Part shown: positions 45,758-55,563 of the stretch, in pieces
How positions within the stretch are numbered: the first letter of the stretch is position 1
How the letters are laid out: each line of letters begins with the position of its first letter
Source: Leptolyngbya sp. FACHB-261
GTDB lineage: Bacteria > Cyanobacteriota > Cyanobacteriia > FACHB-261
Assembly (NCBI RefSeq): GCF_014696065.1
Contig: NZ_JACJPL010000031.1
Span: 558,001 to 622,000, forward strand
DNA: 64,000 nucleotides
Direction: 5' to 3'
Program-made: the position numbers and the translations under genes
The notes under the pieces: generated by a model
The model's input: the letters and a program-made list of their open reading frames with translations, nothing else
What the model was told of the DNA's origin: nothing
Databases searched by the model: none

Positions 45758-46711
45758 ATGCTGAGCCGCGTTGCCGATTCCATCTATTGGCTCAATCGTT
45801 ATATTGAACGGGCTGAAAATGTAGCGCGTTTTATCGATGTCAACCTTAATTTAATTCTGGATTTACCAACGGGAATTGCTCAGCAATGGAAGCCTCTGAT
45901 TCTCACGAGTGGTGACCTACCGCTATTTGAGAAGCGCTATGGCGAGGCTACAGCAGAGAATGTCATTCATTTTCTCACCTTTGACCGAGAATACCCGAAC
46001 TCTATCTTGTCCTGTCTCTGCTCCGCTCGCGAAAATGCCCGTTCAGTTCGCGAAATCATCTCTTCAGAAATGTGGGAACAGGTGAATAGCTTTTACCTGA
46101 TGGTAAAGGACGCATGCCCCGATCAATCTCTGTCAGGGCTACACGAATTTTTTGCTGAGGTGAGGTTAGCCAGTCATCTATTTGCTGGCATCATGGACGC
46201 TACGATGGCTCGTAATGAAGGCTGGAATTTTGGGCAAATCGGTAGGGTTTTAGAACGAGCTGATAAGACCTCACGAATCTTGGACGTCAAATATTTTATT
46301 CTGCTGCCTTCAGCTAGAGATGTAGGAACGCTATTGGACGAACTGGAATGGATCGCTTTACTCAAGTCGGCGAGCGCCTACGAAATGTATCGCAAGCGGG
46401 GTCAGCACCGAATTAAGCCTACAGGCATTGCAGAATTCTTAATCTTAGATCGAGAATTTCCTCGCTCCATTCAATTTTGTCTACTAGAGGCGGAGCGTTC
46501 AGTTCACCAGATCACAGGAACTCCCACAGGTACTTGGCGAAATCCAGTTGAACGAGCGCTAGGACGCTTACGCTCCGAACTTGATTATTCGACGATTGAG
46601 GAAATTATTCAAACTGGCTTACACGAGTTTCTAGATCAGTTGCAACGGCGAATGAATGGCATTGGTGAAAAGATGTTTGAAACCTTCTTTGCGCTTGAAC
46701 CTCTTCCCTAA
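45758..46711 (+). CDS. Alpha-E domain protein (COG2307, DUF403)
   Basis: A 317-residue helical protein of the alpha-E superfamily. The start MLSRVADSIYWLNRYIERAENVARFIDVN is diagnostic. Further on are CLCSARENARSVREIISSEMWEQVN, GRVLERADKTSRILDVKYF, and FLILDREFPRSIQFCLLEAERSV. These helix pairs with E and R residues are the family core. It always keeps company with the ATP-grasp gene, which starts 74 bases upstream of it here. The activity is unknown; it may act with the ATP-grasp and transglutaminase proteins on a peptide substrate. Confidence 0.93.
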   Translation: MLSRVADSIYWLNRYIERAENVARFIDVNLNLILDLPTGIAQQWKPLILTSGDLPLFEKRYGEATAENVIHFLTFDREYPNSILSCLCSARENARSVREIISSEMWEQVNSFYLMVKDACPDQSLSGLHEFFAEVRLASHLFAGIMDATMARNEGWNFGQIGRVLERADKTSRILDVKYFILLPSARDVGTLLDELEWIALLKSASAYEMYRKRGQHRIKPTGIAEFLILDREFPRSIQFCLLEAERSVHQITGTPTGTWRNPVERALGRLRSELDYSTIEEIIQTGLHEFLDQLQRRMNGIGEKMFETFFALEPLP

Positions 46712-46784
46712 ATTACTTTCCTAAATCTCTTCCCTAAACGACCTCTCTAAACTAATAACAGGGAGCTGCTGTTCTTGCTGGCTT

Positions 46785-47636
46785 ATGCGTTATCAGATTG
46801 CCCACACGACAACTTATCAGTATGATCAATCGGTTAACTTAGAACCTCATATTCTGCGGTTGCGGCCCCGTTGTGATGGCGCTCAAAAACTGCATGATTT
46901 TGCTTTAGAGATTGTGCCCAAACCAGAGGGAACTGCCCAGATTTTGGATCTGGAGAACAACGCAGTTATTCAGCTCTGGTTTGGACAGCCAACTGATTCC
47001 TTAAGCCTTAAGGTTGTCTCAGACGTAGAAACGCTGTGCACCAATCCCTTTAACTACCTCCTAGAACCCTGGGCCACCCAATTACCAATTGTTTATCCAG
47101 CCCCCATGCTCGCCCATCTCCAGCTCTATCTAGGCGGGCAGTTCCCCTACGGTCTAGATCCAGTTGCTGTTCAGTTGGCCCAAAGCCTTTATCAATCAAC
47201 CGCCGGTAGTACAGTCGCTTTTCTCAACCAACTCAATCAACAGATTCATCAGACCTGTCAGCAACAATTCCGCGAGACTGGCGAACCTTTACCAGCTGCG
47301 GTCACCTGGAACCAACGCTCAGGTTCCTGTCGTGACCTGGCCGTCCTGTTCATGGAGGTCTGCCGTAGCATGGGCTTGGCGGCTCGCTTTGTCAGTGGTT
47401 ATCAGAAAACTGAGCCAGACCTGCCAAAATATCACCTCCACGCTTGGGTAGAAGTTTATTTGCCGGGTGCTGGCTGGCGTGGCTATGACCCAAGCCAGGG
47501 CCTAGCTGTTGCTGACCGCCACATACCACTGGCCACCAGTGCTCAACCGCGCAATGCTGCCCCTGTGACTGGCTTGGTACGAGCTAGTCGGGCTCAAGCT
47601 GTAATGCAATACCAGCTCTCGATTCAGACTCTTTAG
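46785..47636 (+). CDS. Transglutaminase-like cysteine protease family protein
   Basis: A 283-residue protein with an N-terminal beta domain (MRYQIAHTTTYQYDQSVNLEP) and a transglutaminase-like core. The triad is visible: Cys in SGSCRDLAVLFMEVCRSMGLAARFVSGY near residue 185, His in YHLHAWVEVYLPGAGW near 222, and Asp in YDPSQG near 240. It is the third member of the ATP-grasp/alpha-E/transglutaminase trio. Such enzymes hydrolyse or form isopeptide bonds; here it could cleave or cross-link the product of the ATP-grasp enzyme. It begins with ATG 73 bases after the alpha-E gene. Confidence 0.92.
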   Translation: MRYQIAHTTTYQYDQSVNLEPHILRLRPRCDGAQKLHDFALEIVPKPEGTAQILDLENNAVIQLWFGQPTDSLSLKVVSDVETLCTNPFNYLLEPWATQLPIVYPAPMLAHLQLYLGGQFPYGLDPVAVQLAQSLYQSTAGSTVAFLNQLNQQIHQTCQQQFRETGEPLPAAVTWNQRSGSCRDLAVLFMEVCRSMGLAARFVSGYQKTEPDLPKYHLHAWVEVYLPGAGWRGYDPSQGLAVADRHIPLATSAQPRNAAPVTGLVRASRAQAVMQYQLSIQTL

Positions 47637-47907: not shown

Positions 47908-50900
47908 TTAGTTGGGCTTAGGTAGAGGATTGATGACCAGTGGTTCTTCTAGGTTTTGGGAGAGGGTCTGCTTCACAGCCTGTAGATAGGAGCGAAGGCG
48001 TTCGAACTGCAGCAGATTGGGCCGATAGCGACCATCACTCATCGGGTCAAATAGCGCTGCTTCTGGCATCGCTGGCTGCGCTGCTAACCAGAGCCGGTCT
48101 TCATCCTGCCAGGCAAACAGTTCAGCAGGCAATTGTCCCTCCAAAATCGCAATTACCCGCTGCCGGCAGACCCGTGTATTGATGCCGCGTCGCTCCAATT
48201 GTTGCAACAAGGCCTCAACTGTGACAGGAGCCGCTAAAGTTGCTGCATTTTCGGCAGTTGATGGCGGAAATGCCTTCAATAATTCCAGTAACAGAAAATA
48301 ATCGCCGTACTGGAGCCGAACTTGGTCGACAACATGGGGATAGAGCGGTAGCAACGCTAACCCCTGCGCTAAGCGCCCCCCCTGAAGTTCCTTAGCCACT
48401 TCATCAGGCTCGATTAGATGGGCCGCGGGCAGCTTCTGACGTAACCAAAGGGAAATTGCTCCCAGTGCTGCAGTGCCACCGGTACAAAGGGCTAATTTCA
48501 CCTCTGCCACTGAAAGCCCTGCAACGCTCAGTAAGTCGTTTAGCTCTCGATTCAAACGTTGAACAAAGGGCAAGAGGACTTGGCTATCCAATTCACGCCG
48601 TACGACCAAAATCGGTTGTCCAGCTAATTGAGCACTGAAGCGGTCCTGCTGAGTGAGTGCAAGTTTCAACTGCTGTGCCAGAGCTTGCAACTCCTGACCC
48701 AGAGTGGAACTTTCTAACCGCTGACGCAACCGGCAACGCGCCGCTGGATCTGGATCGCCAGGCAAGGGTAGGTCCAAATCCTCTAGGCTGAAAGTCTCAG
48801 CAGAGCTTGACATGAACTGCTGGAGCCTAGGGTAGAGCAACTGGCAAACAATGTCTTGCTCAATGCCTTCGCCAGCGTAGCGTAAGCTATGGCAGATAAA
48901 GTCACTGTGGTTCAGGCTTTGAGAGTCATCCGGCAGGTTGACCAAGGTAAATTCTGTGGACTCAGCGCCAATATCTAACAGCAACGCTGGTCCTATCCAG
49001 GGAGATTTGAGCGGTACTGCAGCTGTGCCTATGCTGCTTGGAGCAGCGGCTGAGGATTGTGCTGCTAGCAAGGACAGAATGCCAGCAATCGGATCCTCAA
49101 CCAGGAGCACCTGCTCAGGCCCCTGGACCCAACCCAGGTTGAGAACGGCTTCCCGCAAATTCAGGTAGTAAGTCTCTGACCAGCCTGTCGGTACGCCCAA
49201 GCTTACCCCTGCTAGATTTTGCCAGATGCGGCTCAAGGTCTCTGAGTTCAGCCCCTCGGCTTGAGCCTGCTGCGAACCCTGGGCCAAGATCTGTTGCAGA
49301 GCAGCTTGCAACCAGCGCAGTGGCAAGCGTTGCCGATCAGACCACTGAATTAGAGGTTGCCATTGCTCTGCTTCTCGGTAGGAGAGCCCTGTTTTCAGCA
49401 GCGCCTTGAAGCTATGCAGCAACAGACCCTTGGCAGCGTAGCCTTCCCTTTGAATCACTGCCCAAGCGTCAGGGCCAACTAGCACTTCTGCCTCAAGAGG
49501 CTCTTGGATGCCTGAGCTGAGCAGGTCAGAGTGCAGGTAAGCCAGACAGGGAAACTCAAAGAGAGTTTCGGGGCGGCCAGCCCCATAAGACCAGCTCAAA
49601 GGATAGAGTTTGCCGCTATTTGCCTCAAGCAGTGTGGCCGAGAGAGAACGGCTGCCAAAATCAAGGCCCAGGAACCAGCGGCTCTCGCTGTCCAGATTCA
49701 CTGAAGAAGCACGAGGCGGATTTAAGGTCGCAATCGAGGCCCAGTCTGATTGTGATTCTGTCTCTGAACCAGGATATGAAGCCGGTGTGCTGTTAACTGG
49801 TGGGCTGTTGACGATTGATGTCTCTAGCCAACCAGTTCCTATGGGCTCATTGGGGGCACGATAGCCCGAAACTCCTGTGCCACTCATTGGATCAGGGGGC
49901 AAGGCCGGTTTGGGCTGGGCAGTAGTCAGCCCGGGGACGACCGTGTCTTCTCCAAAGTCTTCGTCAATTTCTCCGTCCGGAGAGGTCAACCAATCCGAAC
50001 CGTCCTCAGTTTCGTCCGACTCATCGCCGCCTTCCTCGGTCCCCAGCATGGTAATCCAGCTGGCGCTGTCATCATCGTCGGCATCAAAAGTCCAGTCGGA
50101 CTCCAACTCTGGTAGTTCCAGGATCGTATTGTCTAAAGCAGAGGCACCACCATCGACTTCTAATGGGGTGAGTTCATCGCCATCGTCCTCATCCTCGCTA
50201 GACCAATCAGAGTCTAGTTCGGGCAGTTCTAGTAGGGTTTCTTCTAAGGCAAACGAGTCACTATCCAAATCCATCTCAGGGAAATCGCCGTCTAATTCGT
50301 CGGTTTCCAATAACTCGGAGCCCAAGATAGCCTCTACATCCAGGTCCGGTAGGTCAGCCTCTTCTGCAAAACCGAACTCCGTCAAATCTGCTAGCTCTGC
50401 TTGACCGGGTAAGGCTTCCAGTTCGGTCAGATCGTCATCCAGATCCAGCTCGTATCTTGTCTCCAAGTCGAGATCTTCAAATCCCATTTCCTCAAATGAA
50501 TCATCTGTGAGTCCTTCCAGCCCAGTCACAGGCCGAGAGAGAACCGTGATGTTAATTTCATCAATCTGCTCAGGGGCTGGAGCAGGGGTTGGATCCGCTA
50601 CCGGTTCGGCTGCTGCTGGCTCAGGGGTGGGTGCCTCAGAGGTCTGGCCCGTTGGCAGTTCAGCACTTGTCAGCGTCTCTGAAGCTTGAAGAGGACTAGC
50701 AGCCGGCTCGGTAGGGGCAACGCTCACTACAGGGGCGATCTCTGATAGCAGCTGCTCTAGGGTGCCCAGGTCTAGATCGTTGAGGTCGGCAGTTGCGGTG
50801 AGGGGGTCAAGGTCAGGTTGCGTAGTCTGCGCAGGCGAGGGGACGGGCTCAGCGTCAATTTGAGCCGAACCAGTTTGATCTGGTCGAGTTTGATCTGGGC

Positions 50901-53900
50901 CAACTTGAACCGGGCTAGCTTGACCAGTCCTGATGGGATCAGCTTCTAGCTGCTCGGCCTCGATTGGCTCTGGAATAATTAACTCAGTCTCGGTTGGTAA
51001 TGGCAGAGCTGGAACCTCAGCCAGATCCCCTAAACCTCCAAAATCGGCTAACAGGTCATCGTCGTCCGACAGATCTGAGAGACCAAAGCTGTCGAAGCCT
51101 GATTCATCAAACTCCTCGCTGTCGTCTGCCTCGTCCCCTACCGCTTCTAGAAGGGTTTGTGCTTCTAGGGCTAGGGGATCGTCACTCCACGCAGCCAGTT
51201 CCTCAAATTCTTCAAGCTCGGGGGTTAAGTCTGCCTCTGTCGAAATCGGGGCGGCTACGGTGGGCAGCGATTCCTCAACAACTTCAATAGGAGCAGCCAA
51301 ATCAGTCGTTGCTTCTAAGTCAGCCTCAGCTGCATCAGCAAAATTGGTGAGCTGCTCGTCTACTAAAGCTTCTGGCCTATCTGGCGTATCTAAGATTGGA
51401 TCGCCAAAGTCCAAATCGTCCAGAGCTAGACTGCTATTGACTAAAACCTCAGGAGTAGACTCTGGCGCTGTCTCTAGTGTTGTTTCTGGCGTTTCTAGCG
51501 TTGTCTCTGCCGCAGTCTGAGGTGGGGTCTGGCGCGCGTTTAGGCTTAATAAATCATCACCCAGGACTGCCAGTAGTTCTGCATCGGGCCAATCTTCAGG
51601 CTCAGCTATTGCTGGAGCCTCAGGTGCCACAGCGGATGCTTCCGACTGAGGGACGGCACCCTCTAAGTTGACCAAATCTATTGCGGTTGGCGTTTGAGGA
51701 GCCGGATCGGACAGGTTTTGAAAGAGGTCTGCCTCTTCGCCTGGTTCAGCGCTCAGTTCAGCCTCTAGCTCCGCCGGAGCAAATTCAACCGGGGCCAATT
51801 CAAGTAGAGGCAGCTCAACTGGAGCCAGTTCAACTGGAGTCGGTTCGCTAGCCTCTGGCTCATCCCAGAAGCTTTCCAAGGTAATTTCAGTAGGGGTTAC
51901 ACCTTCCTCGCCCTGGTCGGGGCTAGTAACCGGGGCTGGAATCGGTTCAGGCGTAAGTTCAGGCCCTGGCTCTGTGTCCAAGAAATTGTCGGCTGTGAGC
52001 GCTGGAGCTTCAGCAGACACTGCTTCTGCACGAGCAGCCTCAACCGTTGGCGCTAAAAAGTTTTCGAGCAGCAGGTCTTCATCAAGAGCGCTGTCACTTG
52101 CTTCTGCTAATGCGGGTTCTGGCTCTGATTCCAGCGACTCCGTCCCTGACTCCGCTACTGACAAATTCTCAGGTTCTGGGCTTGCTGCTTCTGGCTCAGG
52201 CTCTGCTCCACTAGTAATTTCAGGAATGGTTGGGGTCGGCAAAATTGTTAGGTCAGGGAGCAGTCCTTCACTGGCTTCCTCTTCAAACAAGCTGTCTATG
52301 GTGACGTCTGAGAATCCTGCCGAGCTGGTTTCAGGAGGGCTGGTTTCCAGACGGCTCAAATCCTGGCTCAGCTCCTCACGCAGCTGGTCATCCACCCAGG
52401 CATCGCCATCCTCAGTGAAGAAGTTATCTAGCCGTAGAACTTCGTCGCCTGTAGCTTGAGAGAGATCGCCGCTGAGGTCCTCGGCAAAATCAGATAGGGT
52501 TAGGCTGTCGTCCAGCTCCGCTCCTAGTTCTAGGGTTGAGGTAGGCTCCGGGCTGAGTTCTAAACTTGGCTCAGGTGACGGTGTTGCTTGGGCCTCAGCC
52601 TCAAGAGCTTCTGTTGGTAGTTGTAGCGCTTCAGGCTCGGTTGCCGGTTGTGGCTCTGGAGGAGCACTCAAAAGCTCACTCAAGTCAGCCAATGTCTCCA
52701 CGGGTCCGAGCTTATCTACCGCAGCCCACATTAGATCTGGGACTTGTTGTTCTGACTCAGCTAGTACCGGCTCAGGCTGGGGTTCTACGAGTTCTATTGA
52801 GAGTGGGATAACTGAACCAGGACTTGACAACGCCTCTGACAGAGGCCCCGATGGCTGCTCACTTGGGAAGTCATTCAGGCTGGCTAGTTGTTCTGGGCCG
52901 CCTACATCGACTGGAGTCTCTATCGAGCTGGCTTCAGGCTCAGCTGCGATATCACCGAAAAGATCTGACCCTAACAGCTCCAGTTCAAGATCTGATTCTG
53001 AGGCAGGTAAAGGAACCGCTGTGCGCTCCAGTTCCAGCGTGTCTTCAGCTTCAGCAGGTAGACTCTCCGGCGCTTCATTTTCGTCACTAGGCGAAGCAGG
53101 CTCGAAGAATAGCAGATCTGATCCCTCTAGCGCATTAACAGCCTGGGGTTCTGCTTCTGGGCTGGGCGTTTCTGTGGCTTGATTCGCTTCAGGCTCTAGT
53201 ACAGGCTCTTGGTAGAGGTCATTAAGGGTTAAGTACAGGTCACTGAGTCCCAAATCCTCAAAGGCTTCTTCCGCAAAGCTAAGGGATGTGGGGGCTTCAG
53301 CAGAAACCGAGGCATCAAGAGGGGCTTGAGGAGAAACTTGAGCAGGCTCCTCTGTAACTCCGGTAGCCGTTGCTTCAGGGAGGATAGTCTCAGGGGCAAT
53401 AGTCTCAAGAGCGGCAATCTCCTCAGGGGCAATAGCCGCTTCCAGGGGAATGATCTCCTCGGGAGCAGTAATTGCTTCTACGTCGGTTGCTACGTCAGTT
53501 GCTTCGCCGGTTTCTGCATCAGTGGCTGGGATATCTGGGGTTTCTATCAGACTCTCAGCAAGCTCTGGGATCGGTTGGTCAGCCTCCTCAGAAGCTAGAG
53601 GCTCTGAGAGAATATCGAGCAGAGGTTGATCGAATTCAGCTAGGTCCTGCTCAAGCTCAAGGGGCAGGAAATCAACCGAGCTAGTGCCTGTATGCTCAAG
53701 ATCTAAGCGGCTGAGTTCATCTGCAAGCTCATCTGCCCAAGCTGCCGGGGGAGCCACTTCAGAGGACGCCTCAGCTGGAATAGGATCTGGCGTTGGAGCA
53801 GACTCTGGGCTGAGAAGTTCAGGAGGCGTGTCATCAATAGGACCTGCCACAGCCTCAGGGCTTGTGATTGCCTCAGGAGCAGCTGCAACCTCAGGAGTAT

Positions 53901-55563
53901 CTACAACCTCAGGAGTGACAGCAACCTCAGGAGTGACAGCAACCTCAGGGCTCACTTCAGCTTCAGGGCTGGCTACAACCTCAGGACTGCCTACAGTTTC
54001 TGGCGCGTTTGGCTGCTGCAACTCTGAGGCTATTTGTTCAAGCAGGCCCAGAGCAGCGTAAGCATCAGGAAGCGATATACTCAGACCCGATACCGGGGAA
54101 GGCAGGCCAACGGCATCCTCAGTCGTAACGGCATTGCTCTCTAGCTCAGGCGCAAAGGGCTGAAGCTCGATCTCATTCAGGGCCGCTTCCAGTTCCGCCT
54201 CAAAGCTGTTTTCGGTCAAATCTGCTGGCAATTCATAGCCAGGATAAGCATGATCTTCTAGGAGAGCCCCTCGATTTTGTCGGGGTTGGTCGGGTACGAC
54301 CGGGGGCAAGACTTCCATCCCTGCATATGCCCCTGGGTAGGACGGCAGTTCAGCCGTGCTTGCTTCACTAGGGCCAGATTGGTTAAGCCACTGGATCAAG
54401 GAGCTGAGTGCTGCCTCGCCCCGGGACCCTGAGTGATTGACTTGGGATAGACGCTGGCTTAGGCCTGCAAATGTGGTTGACAAACTGCTGTCTAAGGTAG
54501 ACAGCAGCTGCTCAGTGGAGGCGGGGGAAGCTGGGGTCGCTTGCTGAACCTGCGATAGGGTCTGACGGAGTTGCTGGCTCAATTGATCTTTGAGATGAGC
54601 TTCCAGGCTTTGAAGAACTCCGGCAATAAGCTGCTGCTGAAGATCCATATCAGGTTCAGAAGAATCAGGGGTGGTAGAAGAGCTTGTGGCGCTGGGTTGA
54701 GCCTCAGGGATCGAGATTGAAGCTGGAGTGACCAAGGAACTCAAGTCTGAGCGAAGTTGATTATAGTGCTGCTGCAGGTCTGCTAACTCGCGCCTGAGTT
54801 GCTGGCTCCAGTCCTGGCTCAGGGTTCCCAATTCCTGCTTGAGGTTGGTCTCCAGCTCTTGCAACCCGTCTTGCAACTCATGCTGTAGGGCAGCTTGTAG
54901 AGCTTGGGGATCAATTGGGGCAGCTATCTCAGCTGGGCTAGCCGTTGCCTCATCCCGTTGCGCTTTGTCCTGGAGATTCTGTTCTAGTTGGGCGTTTAGG
55001 GCAGATAGCTGATTGAGTAGACGCTGTGACTCAGTGCCTAAGTTGGAGCGCTCTGCTTCTAGTTGCTGACGAGTTACTTCAAGCTGGTCACGAAAGGGGG
55101 TGAGCACGCTTTCCAAGGTGTGCACAGGAGCTTCCTGCAAGCTGCTTAGCCGCTCGGCCAACTCACTAAGCGTACTTTCTAGCTTGAGTTGTTGTTGCCT
55201 TAGCGCTTCGGCCCGAGTCGTTTCCAGTTCAGCGATCTCCTGCTGGAGGCGCTGCTGCTCACTGTGGTGTTCTTGAAGCTGGCTCTCCAGGCTAGTCTGT
55301 TGCGCCTGGGCTGCCTGACATTGCACCTCTAGGCTGGTTAATTCGGTCAGCCTAGCCAAACGCGATTCTTTGAGCTGTTCGAGTTCCTCTCCCAGGGCCT
55401 GCTGCGCTTGAATACTTTCCAGGTGTTGGTTAAGACGCTGAAATAGATCGCGCTGGCGCCGAAGTTCGTCAGTTTGAACTTTCGGGACCAGACTGATCGG
55501 CTTGCTCAAGACAGCCTGAATTTCAGTCATGAATTCGCGAATCTGCTGATTGGGAGCAGTCAC
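47908..55563 (-). CDS. Giant coiled-coil / low-complexity / Hsp70-actin-fold ATPase protein
   Basis: A single frame of about 2,551 residues, counted from the GTG at 55561-55563. Alternatives are ATG at 55528-55530 and TTG at 55663-55665. Residues about 10-270 are a Gln/Glu/Leu-rich coiled coil (for example EEQRLQQ-like heptads and TLSELAERLSSLQ). Residues about 300-1960 are acidic low complexity, rich in Pro, Glu, Ala, Ser and Leu, with recurrent short acidic motifs such as DLSEDLDD-like and a hexapeptide tract. The last 590 residues are an Hsp70/actin-type ATPase: phosphate-1 FLGLDFGSRSLSATLL, connect-1 GVPTGWSETYYLNLREAVLNLG, VEDPIAGILSLLA, phosphate-2 LLLDIGAESTEFTLV and adenosine motif LALCTGGTAALGAI. 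There is no recognisable substrate-binding domain. The function is unknown; the layout suggests a scaffold with ATP-dependent assembly or chaperone-like action. Confidence 0.85.
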   Translation of the reverse strand: MTAPNQQIREFMTEIQAVLSKPISLVPKVQTDELRRQRDLFQRLNQHLESIQAQQALGEELEQLKESRLARLTELTSLEVQCQAAQAQQTSLESQLQEHHSEQQRLQQEIAELETTRAEALRQQQLKLESTLSELAERLSSLQEAPVHTLESVLTPFRDQLEVTRQQLEAERSNLGTESQRLLNQLSALNAQLEQNLQDKAQRDEATASPAEIAAPIDPQALQAALQHELQDGLQELETNLKQELGTLSQDWSQQLRRELADLQQHYNQLRSDLSSLVTPASISIPEAQPSATSSSTTPDSSEPDMDLQQQLIAGVLQSLEAHLKDQLSQQLRQTLSQVQQATPASPASTEQLLSTLDSSLSTTFAGLSQRLSQVNHSGSRGEAALSSLIQWLNQSGPSEASTAELPSYPGAYAGMEVLPPVVPDQPRQNRGALLEDHAYPGYELPADLTENSFEAELEAALNEIELQPFAPELESNAVTTEDAVGLPSPVSGLSISLPDAYAALGLLEQIASELQQPNAPETVGSPEVVASPEAEVSPEVAVTPEVAVTPEVVDTPEVAAAPEAITSPEAVAGPIDDTPPELLSPESAPTPDPIPAEASSEVAPPAAWADELADELSRLDLEHTGTSSVDFLPLELEQDLAEFDQPLLDILSEPLASEEADQPIPELAESLIETPDIPATDAETGEATDVATDVEAITAPEEIIPLEAAIAPEEIAALETIAPETILPEATATGVTEEPAQVSPQAPLDASVSAEAPTSLSFAEEAFEDLGLSDLYLTLNDLYQEPVLEPEANQATETPSPEAEPQAVNALEGSDLLFFEPASPSDENEAPESLPAEAEDTLELERTAVPLPASESDLELELLGSDLFGDIAAEPEASSIETPVDVGGPEQLASLNDFPSEQPSGPLSEALSSPGSVIPLSIELVEPQPEPVLAESEQQVPDLMWAAVDKLGPVETLADLSELLSAPPEPQPATEPEALQLPTEALEAEAQATPSPEPSLELSPEPTSTLELGAELDDSLTLSDFAEDLSGDLSQATGDEVLRLDNFFTEDGDAWVDDQLREELSQDLSRLETSPPETSSAGFSDVTIDSLFEEEASEGLLPDLTILPTPTIPEITSGAEPEPEAASPEPENLSVAESGTESLESEPEPALAEASDSALDEDLLLENFLAPTVEAARAEAVSAEAPALTADNFLDTEPGPELTPEPIPAPVTSPDQGEEGVTPTEITLESFWDEPEASEPTPVELAPVELPLLELAPVEFAPAELEAELSAEPGEEADLFQNLSDPAPQTPTAIDLVNLEGAVPQSEASAVAPEAPAIAEPEDWPDAELLAVLGDDLLSLNARQTPPQTAAETTLETPETTLETAPESTPEVLVNSSLALDDLDFGDPILDTPDRPEALVDEQLTNFADAAEADLEATTDLAAPIEVVEESLPTVAAPISTEADLTPELEEFEELAAWSDDPLALEAQTLLEAVGDEADDSEEFDESGFDSFGLSDLSDDDDLLADFGGLGDLAEVPALPLPTETELIIPEPIEAEQLEADPIRTGQASPVQVGPDQTRPDQTGSAQIDAEPVPSPAQTTQPDLDPLTATADLNDLDLGTLEQLLSEIAPVVSVAPTEPAASPLQASETLTSAELPTGQTSEAPTPEPAAAEPVADPTPAPAPEQIDEINITVLSRPVTGLEGLTDDSFEEMGFEDLDLETRYELDLDDDLTELEALPGQAELADLTEFGFAEEADLPDLDVEAILGSELLETDELDGDFPEMDLDSDSFALEETLLELPELDSDWSSEDEDDGDELTPLEVDGGASALDNTILELPELESDWTFDADDDDSASWITMLGTEEGGDESDETEDGSDWLTSPDGEIDEDFGEDTVVPGLTTAQPKPALPPDPMSGTGVSGYRAPNEPIGTGWLETSIVNSPPVNSTPASYPGSETESQSDWASIATLNPPRASSVNLDSESRWFLGLDFGSRSLSATLLEANSGKLYPLSWSYGAGRPETLFEFPCLAYLHSDLLSSGIQEPLEAEVLVGPDAWAVIQREGYAAKGLLLHSFKALLKTGLSYREAEQWQPLIQWSDRQRLPLRWLQAALQQILAQGSQQAQAEGLNSETLSRIWQNLAGVSLGVPTGWSETYYLNLREAVLNLGWVQGPEQVLLVEDPIAGILSLLAAQSSAAAPSSIGTAAVPLKSPWIGPALLLDIGAESTEFTLVNLPDDSQSLNHSDFICHSLRYAGEGIEQDIVCQLLYPRLQQFMSSSAETFSLEDLDLPLPGDPDPAARCRLRQRLESSTLGQELQALAQQLKLALTQQDRFSAQLAGQPILVVRRELDSQVLLPFVQRLNRELNDLLSVAGLSVAEVKLALCTGGTAALGAISLWLRQKLPAAHLIEPDEVAKELQGGRLAQGLALLPLYPHVVDQVRLQYGDYFLLLELLKAFPPSTAENAATLAAPVTVEALLQQLERRGINTRVCRQRVIAILEGQLPAELFAWQDEDRLWLAAQPAMPEAALFDPMSDGRYRPNLLQFERLRSYLQAVKQTLSQNLEEPLVINPLPKPN
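53851..53994 (-). repeat. 18-base tandem repeat inside the giant gene
   Basis: Eight in-frame 18-base units of the form AACCTCAGGAGTGACAGC and variants encode hexapeptides such as TPEVAV, TPEVVD and SPEVVA. Two adjacent units (53905-53940) are identical, indicating recent duplication. Confidence 0.9.

Follow-up and report, generated by a model that had tools for sequence, protein, structure and literature searches.

We identified the giant minus-strand gene of the window (the whole 64,000-nucleotide stretch of DNA that was analysed) as a member of an unnamed cyanobacterial gene family without a Pfam or NCBIfam model. From our comparative analyses, we consider it likely that this fused family member derives from an ancestral slippage gene, in which an A run between scaffold and ATPase would have given two isoforms. 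We also lean, less firmly, towards a wider reading, namely an isoform switch of deep origin in which slippage at A9–A11 titrates the Hsp70-type ATPase share of an acidic scaffold, and which several lineages would have hard-wired independently.

Gene architecture

The gene is a single open frame of 2,551 codons from its GTG start (Table 1), and the other two minus-strand frames contain 150 and 210 stops. The start at 55563 is backed by the relatives, nearly all of which share both the GTG and the opening segment (family consensus VTSxxxxIQxLIAEIDxxLxK..PRLPWVMSGE..QR..LER.R.YL). A profile of this segment, from which the window and its clade were left out, matched the window N-terminus with E 2.7e-10, in the frame shared with the ATPase. 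The initial annotation had described one uninterrupted frame of about 2,550 codons with a coiled coil, a strongly acidic middle of about 1,600 residues and an Hsp70/actin-fold ATPase. The uninterrupted frame and the acidic middle were confirmed (residues 401–1950: 24.5% D+E, 17 K/R, net charge −363). The N-terminus is helical, with clear heptad periodicity only around residues 57–112 and 141–196; a coiled coil is thus modestly supported in parts of the N-terminus, not along all of it. The acidic tether may have a phase-separating role. The architecture of a giant scaffold with an ATPase stands, but the view of one giant chain as the natural unit is incomplete, since most relatives encode the two parts in separate, overlapping frames. 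We reject the reading of the frame as an artefact joining separate genes, because N-terminus and nucleotide-binding domain (NBD) share one frame, A/T homopolymers are absent from the window region that joins them, and fused homologues are common.

Table 1. Features of the gene, in positions of the window.
Feature	Position	Strand	Basis or remark
Whole gene	47908..55563	minus	GTG start 55563, stop 47908-47910, 2,551 aa
Conserved N-terminal helical segment (residues 1-65), common to the family	55369..55563	minus	Profile without window clade, E 2.7e-10
Probable coiled coil (residues about 57-196)	54976..55395	minus	Two segments with heptad periodicity above that of shuffles; weak SMC/Rad50-type matches
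Acidic low-complexity tether, residues 401-1950	49714..54363	minus	Net charge -363
Junction region; relatives carry the A9-A11 run here	49690..50060	minus	No A run of at least 7 in the window gene
Hsp70-type NBD and C-terminal extension, last 600 aa	47911..49710	minus	Alignment, AlphaFold, Foldseek, VIA
Phosphate-1 motif LGLDFGSRSL	49642..49671	minus	Asp invariant (101/101)
Connect-1 motif VPTGWSETYYL	49162..49194	minus	Motif in sequence
EDPIAGIL, at DnaK Glu171 position	49075..49098	minus	Glu in 89/101
Phosphate-2 motif LLLDIGAEST	48955..48984	minus	Asp in window; Asn/Ser in 86/101 relatives
Adenosine motif CTGGTAALG	48460..48486	minus	Motif in sequence
Conserved helical C-terminal extension after the NBD	47911..48390	minus	No known fold found

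C-terminal Hsp70-type domain

The C-terminal 600 aa were modelled with AlphaFold from a 27-sequence alignment of relatives (pLDDT 87, pTM 0.89). The model matched Hsp70 NBDs in Foldseek (E 2e-16) and DnaK in VIA (Z 24–25, rmsd 3.1, ~355 residues aligned), the top structural ranks in both being Hsp70 chains, and the family profile matched DnaK with E 0.001. As modelled, the domain is an Hsp70 NBD fold, in agreement with the initial annotation, and the phosphate-1, connect, phosphate-2 and adenosine motifs that it quoted are all present. A Pfam search of the ATPase domain returned no match at E up to 1, and the best NCBIfam hit was noise (YegD-type, 12 bits where the cut-off is 331).

With DnaK residue numbers assigned by our own motif mapping, the equivalents of D8, K70 and E171 are conserved in 101/101, 96/101 and 89/101 sequences, respectively. 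The phosphate-2 Asp (D194) is replaced by Asn or Ser in 86/101 and kept as Asp in seven, including the window, the protein of which has all four residues. This catalytic Asp, at position 246 of the 600 aa, is kept in the window clade and in L041, L035 and L067. The reversed domain order also holds, the NBD forming the last ~600 aa. The claimed absence of a substrate domain is sustained insofar as no substrate-binding domain (SBD) was detected in the window protein, and is qualified by the C-terminal extension, the model of which is mostly helical (pLDDT 76) and gave no PDB match at E < 1. We set PilM aside as the identity of the gene; the genome has a separate PilM gene elsewhere. As to a possible place among the actin-like families PilM, FtsA and MreB, the family profile matched PilM weakly (E 0.006), and Hsp70 chains occupied the top structural ranks.

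Distribution of the family

A first single-protein scan of genome contigs gave no match. With the single protein as query, relatives turned up in 34 of 59 cyanobacterial genomes, and no genome of ≤3.0 Mb in this first sample had a match. The scan of named genomes yielded 227 relatives, and the 80 that were kept are all cyanobacterial, among others from Leptolyngbyaceae, Nodosilinea, Oscillatoria and Nostocales. When 252 genomes of the class were searched with the profile, about half of them yielded strong matches (E below 1e-50); the weak matches may be ordinary Hsp70. The family is widespread in cyanobacteria. Between N-terminus and NBD lie about 550 to 1,990 aa, with the window near the upper end. 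Many acidic linkers (L055, L069, L099, L048, L039 and others) contain repeats of the motif [DSEA]LF[GDE], with seven copies in the L055 linker against 0.8 expected, and 19 of 28 representative linkers contain YxxLFG once. Among the papers searched, none deals with the family or its A run, and the recoding papers do not name Hsp70.

The A run at the frame junction

In many relatives, the upstream frame, encoding the N-terminus and the acidic tether, ends with KKK plus a few further residues. Its overlap with the ATPase frame is tens of nucleotides long and contains 9–11 A's; this usual separation of scaffold and ATPase in relatives was overlooked in the initial annotation. We examined one locus per genome in two samples (28 + 60 = 88 genomes) and found A9–A11 at the junction in 19/28 and 41/60 loci (60/88 in total), spanning at least 16 family-level groups. 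All 19 A/T runs of at least 9 in the 447,617 nt of the first sample were located at the junction, on the coding strand; in the 429,073 nt of the second, 41 of 42 such runs were at the junction, leaving one run outside the junction in 877 kb. Sequencing error in the relatives was ruled out, as the run recurs at one site in 60 genomes. Whole-genome counts of A9 words were six in 5.5 Mb of genome G023 and one in the 6.95 Mb of the window genome (G000). The window organism strongly avoids long A runs, and the pattern GA10 is absent from its genome.

The encoded frame varies (fused, −1 or +1) while the run is kept. All 26 run-bearing split loci of the second sample that need a −1 or +1 join have the run inside the frame overlap, 20 needing a −1 and six a +1 shift, and the shortest run in split loci is 9. 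Outside the Nostocales, a stop lies 0–3 codons past the run in 11/11 run-bearing fused loci and 10/10 run-bearing split(+1) loci, where chance would place one in about 17% per locus and a few rows are near-duplicates. These stops are in the same alternative frame, which is not the encoded one. The Nostocales keep the run, with alternative-frame stops usually 10–30 codons away, and their truncated product is therefore less sharply defined. Close pairs have equal run lengths (10/10, 9/9 and 10/10) and flanks that are 67–98% identical. On the 101-row tree, 12 changes are needed to explain the run, compared with about 33 for shuffled labels, and the run is found in most deep lineages. Five of 45 split loci have no start codon before phosphate-1, and an intact NBD therefore needs the join there. 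In most split loci, the ATPase frame could possibly be initiated separately. The run is A11 in some lineages and A9 in others (L158, L177, L161, L185, L188, L190, L197). Loci L112, L161, L183 and L203 have additional frame breaks for which the A run does not account and which may be due to assembly errors or decay. L057 and L058 represent a third state without an A run, in which the stop and start of separate scaffold and ATPase genes overlap by 4 nt.

Probable loss of the run in the window lineage

The window gene most likely derives from an ancestrally slippery gene and is now hard-wired, because it lacks any A run of at least 7 and groups with fused genes that are likewise run-less (L034, L037 and L038; SH-aLRT 99), although these are long branches and the placement is not beyond doubt. 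Slippage therefore does not apply to the window gene today. The run was also lost elsewhere on the tree, in a 34-row Leptolyngbya/Nodosilinea clade and within the Nostocales.

Slippage model and alternative explanations

The run, the overlap and the stops together are probably the signature of programmed slippage of the transcriptional type; we favour RNA polymerase slippage because both shift directions occur with the same run and the minimum length is nine. The ancestral form would have been one transcription unit with a slippery A9–A11 between a scaffold part, consisting of N-terminal helices, coiled coil and acidic tether, and an Hsp70-type ATPase part. RNA polymerase would add or drop A's at the run, to which ribosomal slippage could contribute, and each slippery gene would yield two proteins, a short ATPase-less one ending with KKK and a long one that includes the ATPase. 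Judging by the reading frames, the ATPase-less form is probably also made in most relatives. Less certainly, the isoforms are predicted to co-assemble through their shared N-terminus, the slippage rate may set the share of ATPase heads on the polyanionic tether, and the nucleotide state may switch partner binding rather than protein folding. We infer that the gene encodes an oligomeric acidic scaffold with a nucleotide-switch head. The Gag/Gag-Pol and dnaX ratios are parallels for the predicted isoform titration. In the window lineage, the run would have been lost, leaving the ATPase on every copy. Counting against the model, 49 loci among the relatives are likewise permanently fused, so dual output is dispensable.

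Ribosomal frameshifting at the A run could make the frame transition instead of RNA polymerase slippage. Ribosomes are known to shift at A-rich heptamers (PMC3711429), and 14/45 loci have SD-like words 4–16 nt before the run, compared with 4/45 at a control position. We nevertheless regard it as rather unlikely: the same A9–A11 run accompanies both −1 and +1 joins and is never shorter than 9 in split loci, the RNA downstream of it is only weakly structured (mean z −0.5; 7/45 loci at z ≤ −2), and mixed shift directions are read as favouring transcriptional slippage in PMC3711429. It is improbable that scaffold and ATPase are two translationally coupled genes, sometimes fused, with the A run incidental. 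The possible start of the ATPase frame in most split loci and the 4-nt overlap in L057 and L058 would fit such coupling, but the run is almost the sole A/T run of at least 9 in the sampled DNA, its length is constant while the flanks diverge, fused genes retain it with a stop just behind, and in five split loci no start precedes the nucleotide-binding motif.

A run acting as a replication-level phase-variation switch would be in keeping with homopolymers being classic contingency tracts and with an encoded frame that varies between lineages; the equal run lengths in close pairs with diverging flanks make this very improbable. Only slightly less improbable is an active chaperone or disaggregase, that is, a DnaK-like protein with swapped domains. 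The Hsp70 NBD fold and the catalytic Asp at position 246 of the window protein agree with such an activity, but no SBD was detected, the C-terminal extension matches nothing, and the phosphate-2 Asp is replaced in most relatives.

Comparison with known systems

Canonical Hsp70 proteins have the NBD first, followed by the SBD. The present domain resembles the NBD of Hsp70/DnaK in its fold, in the phosphate-1, connect-1 and adenosine motifs and in D8, K70 and E171. It differs from it in its C-terminal position after up to ~1,950 residues, in an identity of about 13–17%, in the helical extension found where no SBD was detected, and in the phosphate-2 Asp, which is mostly Asn or Ser in the relatives. 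PilM, the actin-like protein of type IV pili, belongs to the same superfamily and matches the family profile weakly; its architecture is unrelated. Cyanobacterial coiled-coil-rich filament proteins share the coiled coil in a large cytoplasmic protein, whereas their survey (PMC7002697) does not mention Hsp70 (term count 0).

In Thermus thermophilus dnaX, slippage on an A9 run produces tau and gamma, which share their N-terminus, in a set ratio (PMC1088944, PMC3711429). Similarly, presumed slippage on A9–A11 within the present genes would give two products with a common N-terminus. The proteins are different, and the short form of dnaX keeps its ATPase, whereas the predicted short form of the family is without it. 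Transposases of IS elements, including those of Nostoc sp. PCC 7120, use slippage sites of 8–10 A (PMC1088944) and likewise combine a poly(A) run with two overlapping frames in cyanobacteria. IS elements are mobile, however, whereas the family is a chromosomal gene in at least 16 cyanobacterial families.

If our reading is correct, a chromosomal, non-mobile gene has conserved a slippery tract across at least 16 family-level groups while its frame drifted, which would be an unusually strong natural case of programmed slippage setting protein stoichiometry. Annotation of split loci would report a pair of genes and overlook their joint product. Fused and split versions exist naturally and can be compared. 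The results also define an Hsp70-NBD family outside the Pfam and NCBIfam models, usually divergent from a highly conserved Crp-type gene.

Genomic context

Of the 85 loci with sufficient flanking sequence, 71 have a divergent Crp/Fnr-type regulator gene upstream, and DUF2232 and CobT-like genes often come after it. The regulators (L061:3533-4237 and equivalents) show 73–100% identity and could correspond to SyCRP1 (sll1371). The Crp orthologue of the window genome (79% identity) is located elsewhere. This gene neighbourhood gives a hint, though no proof, of a link to cAMP or motility control. At 45758-47636 of the window, an Alpha-E protein gene is followed by a transglutaminase-like protein gene, an ordinary bacterial pair.
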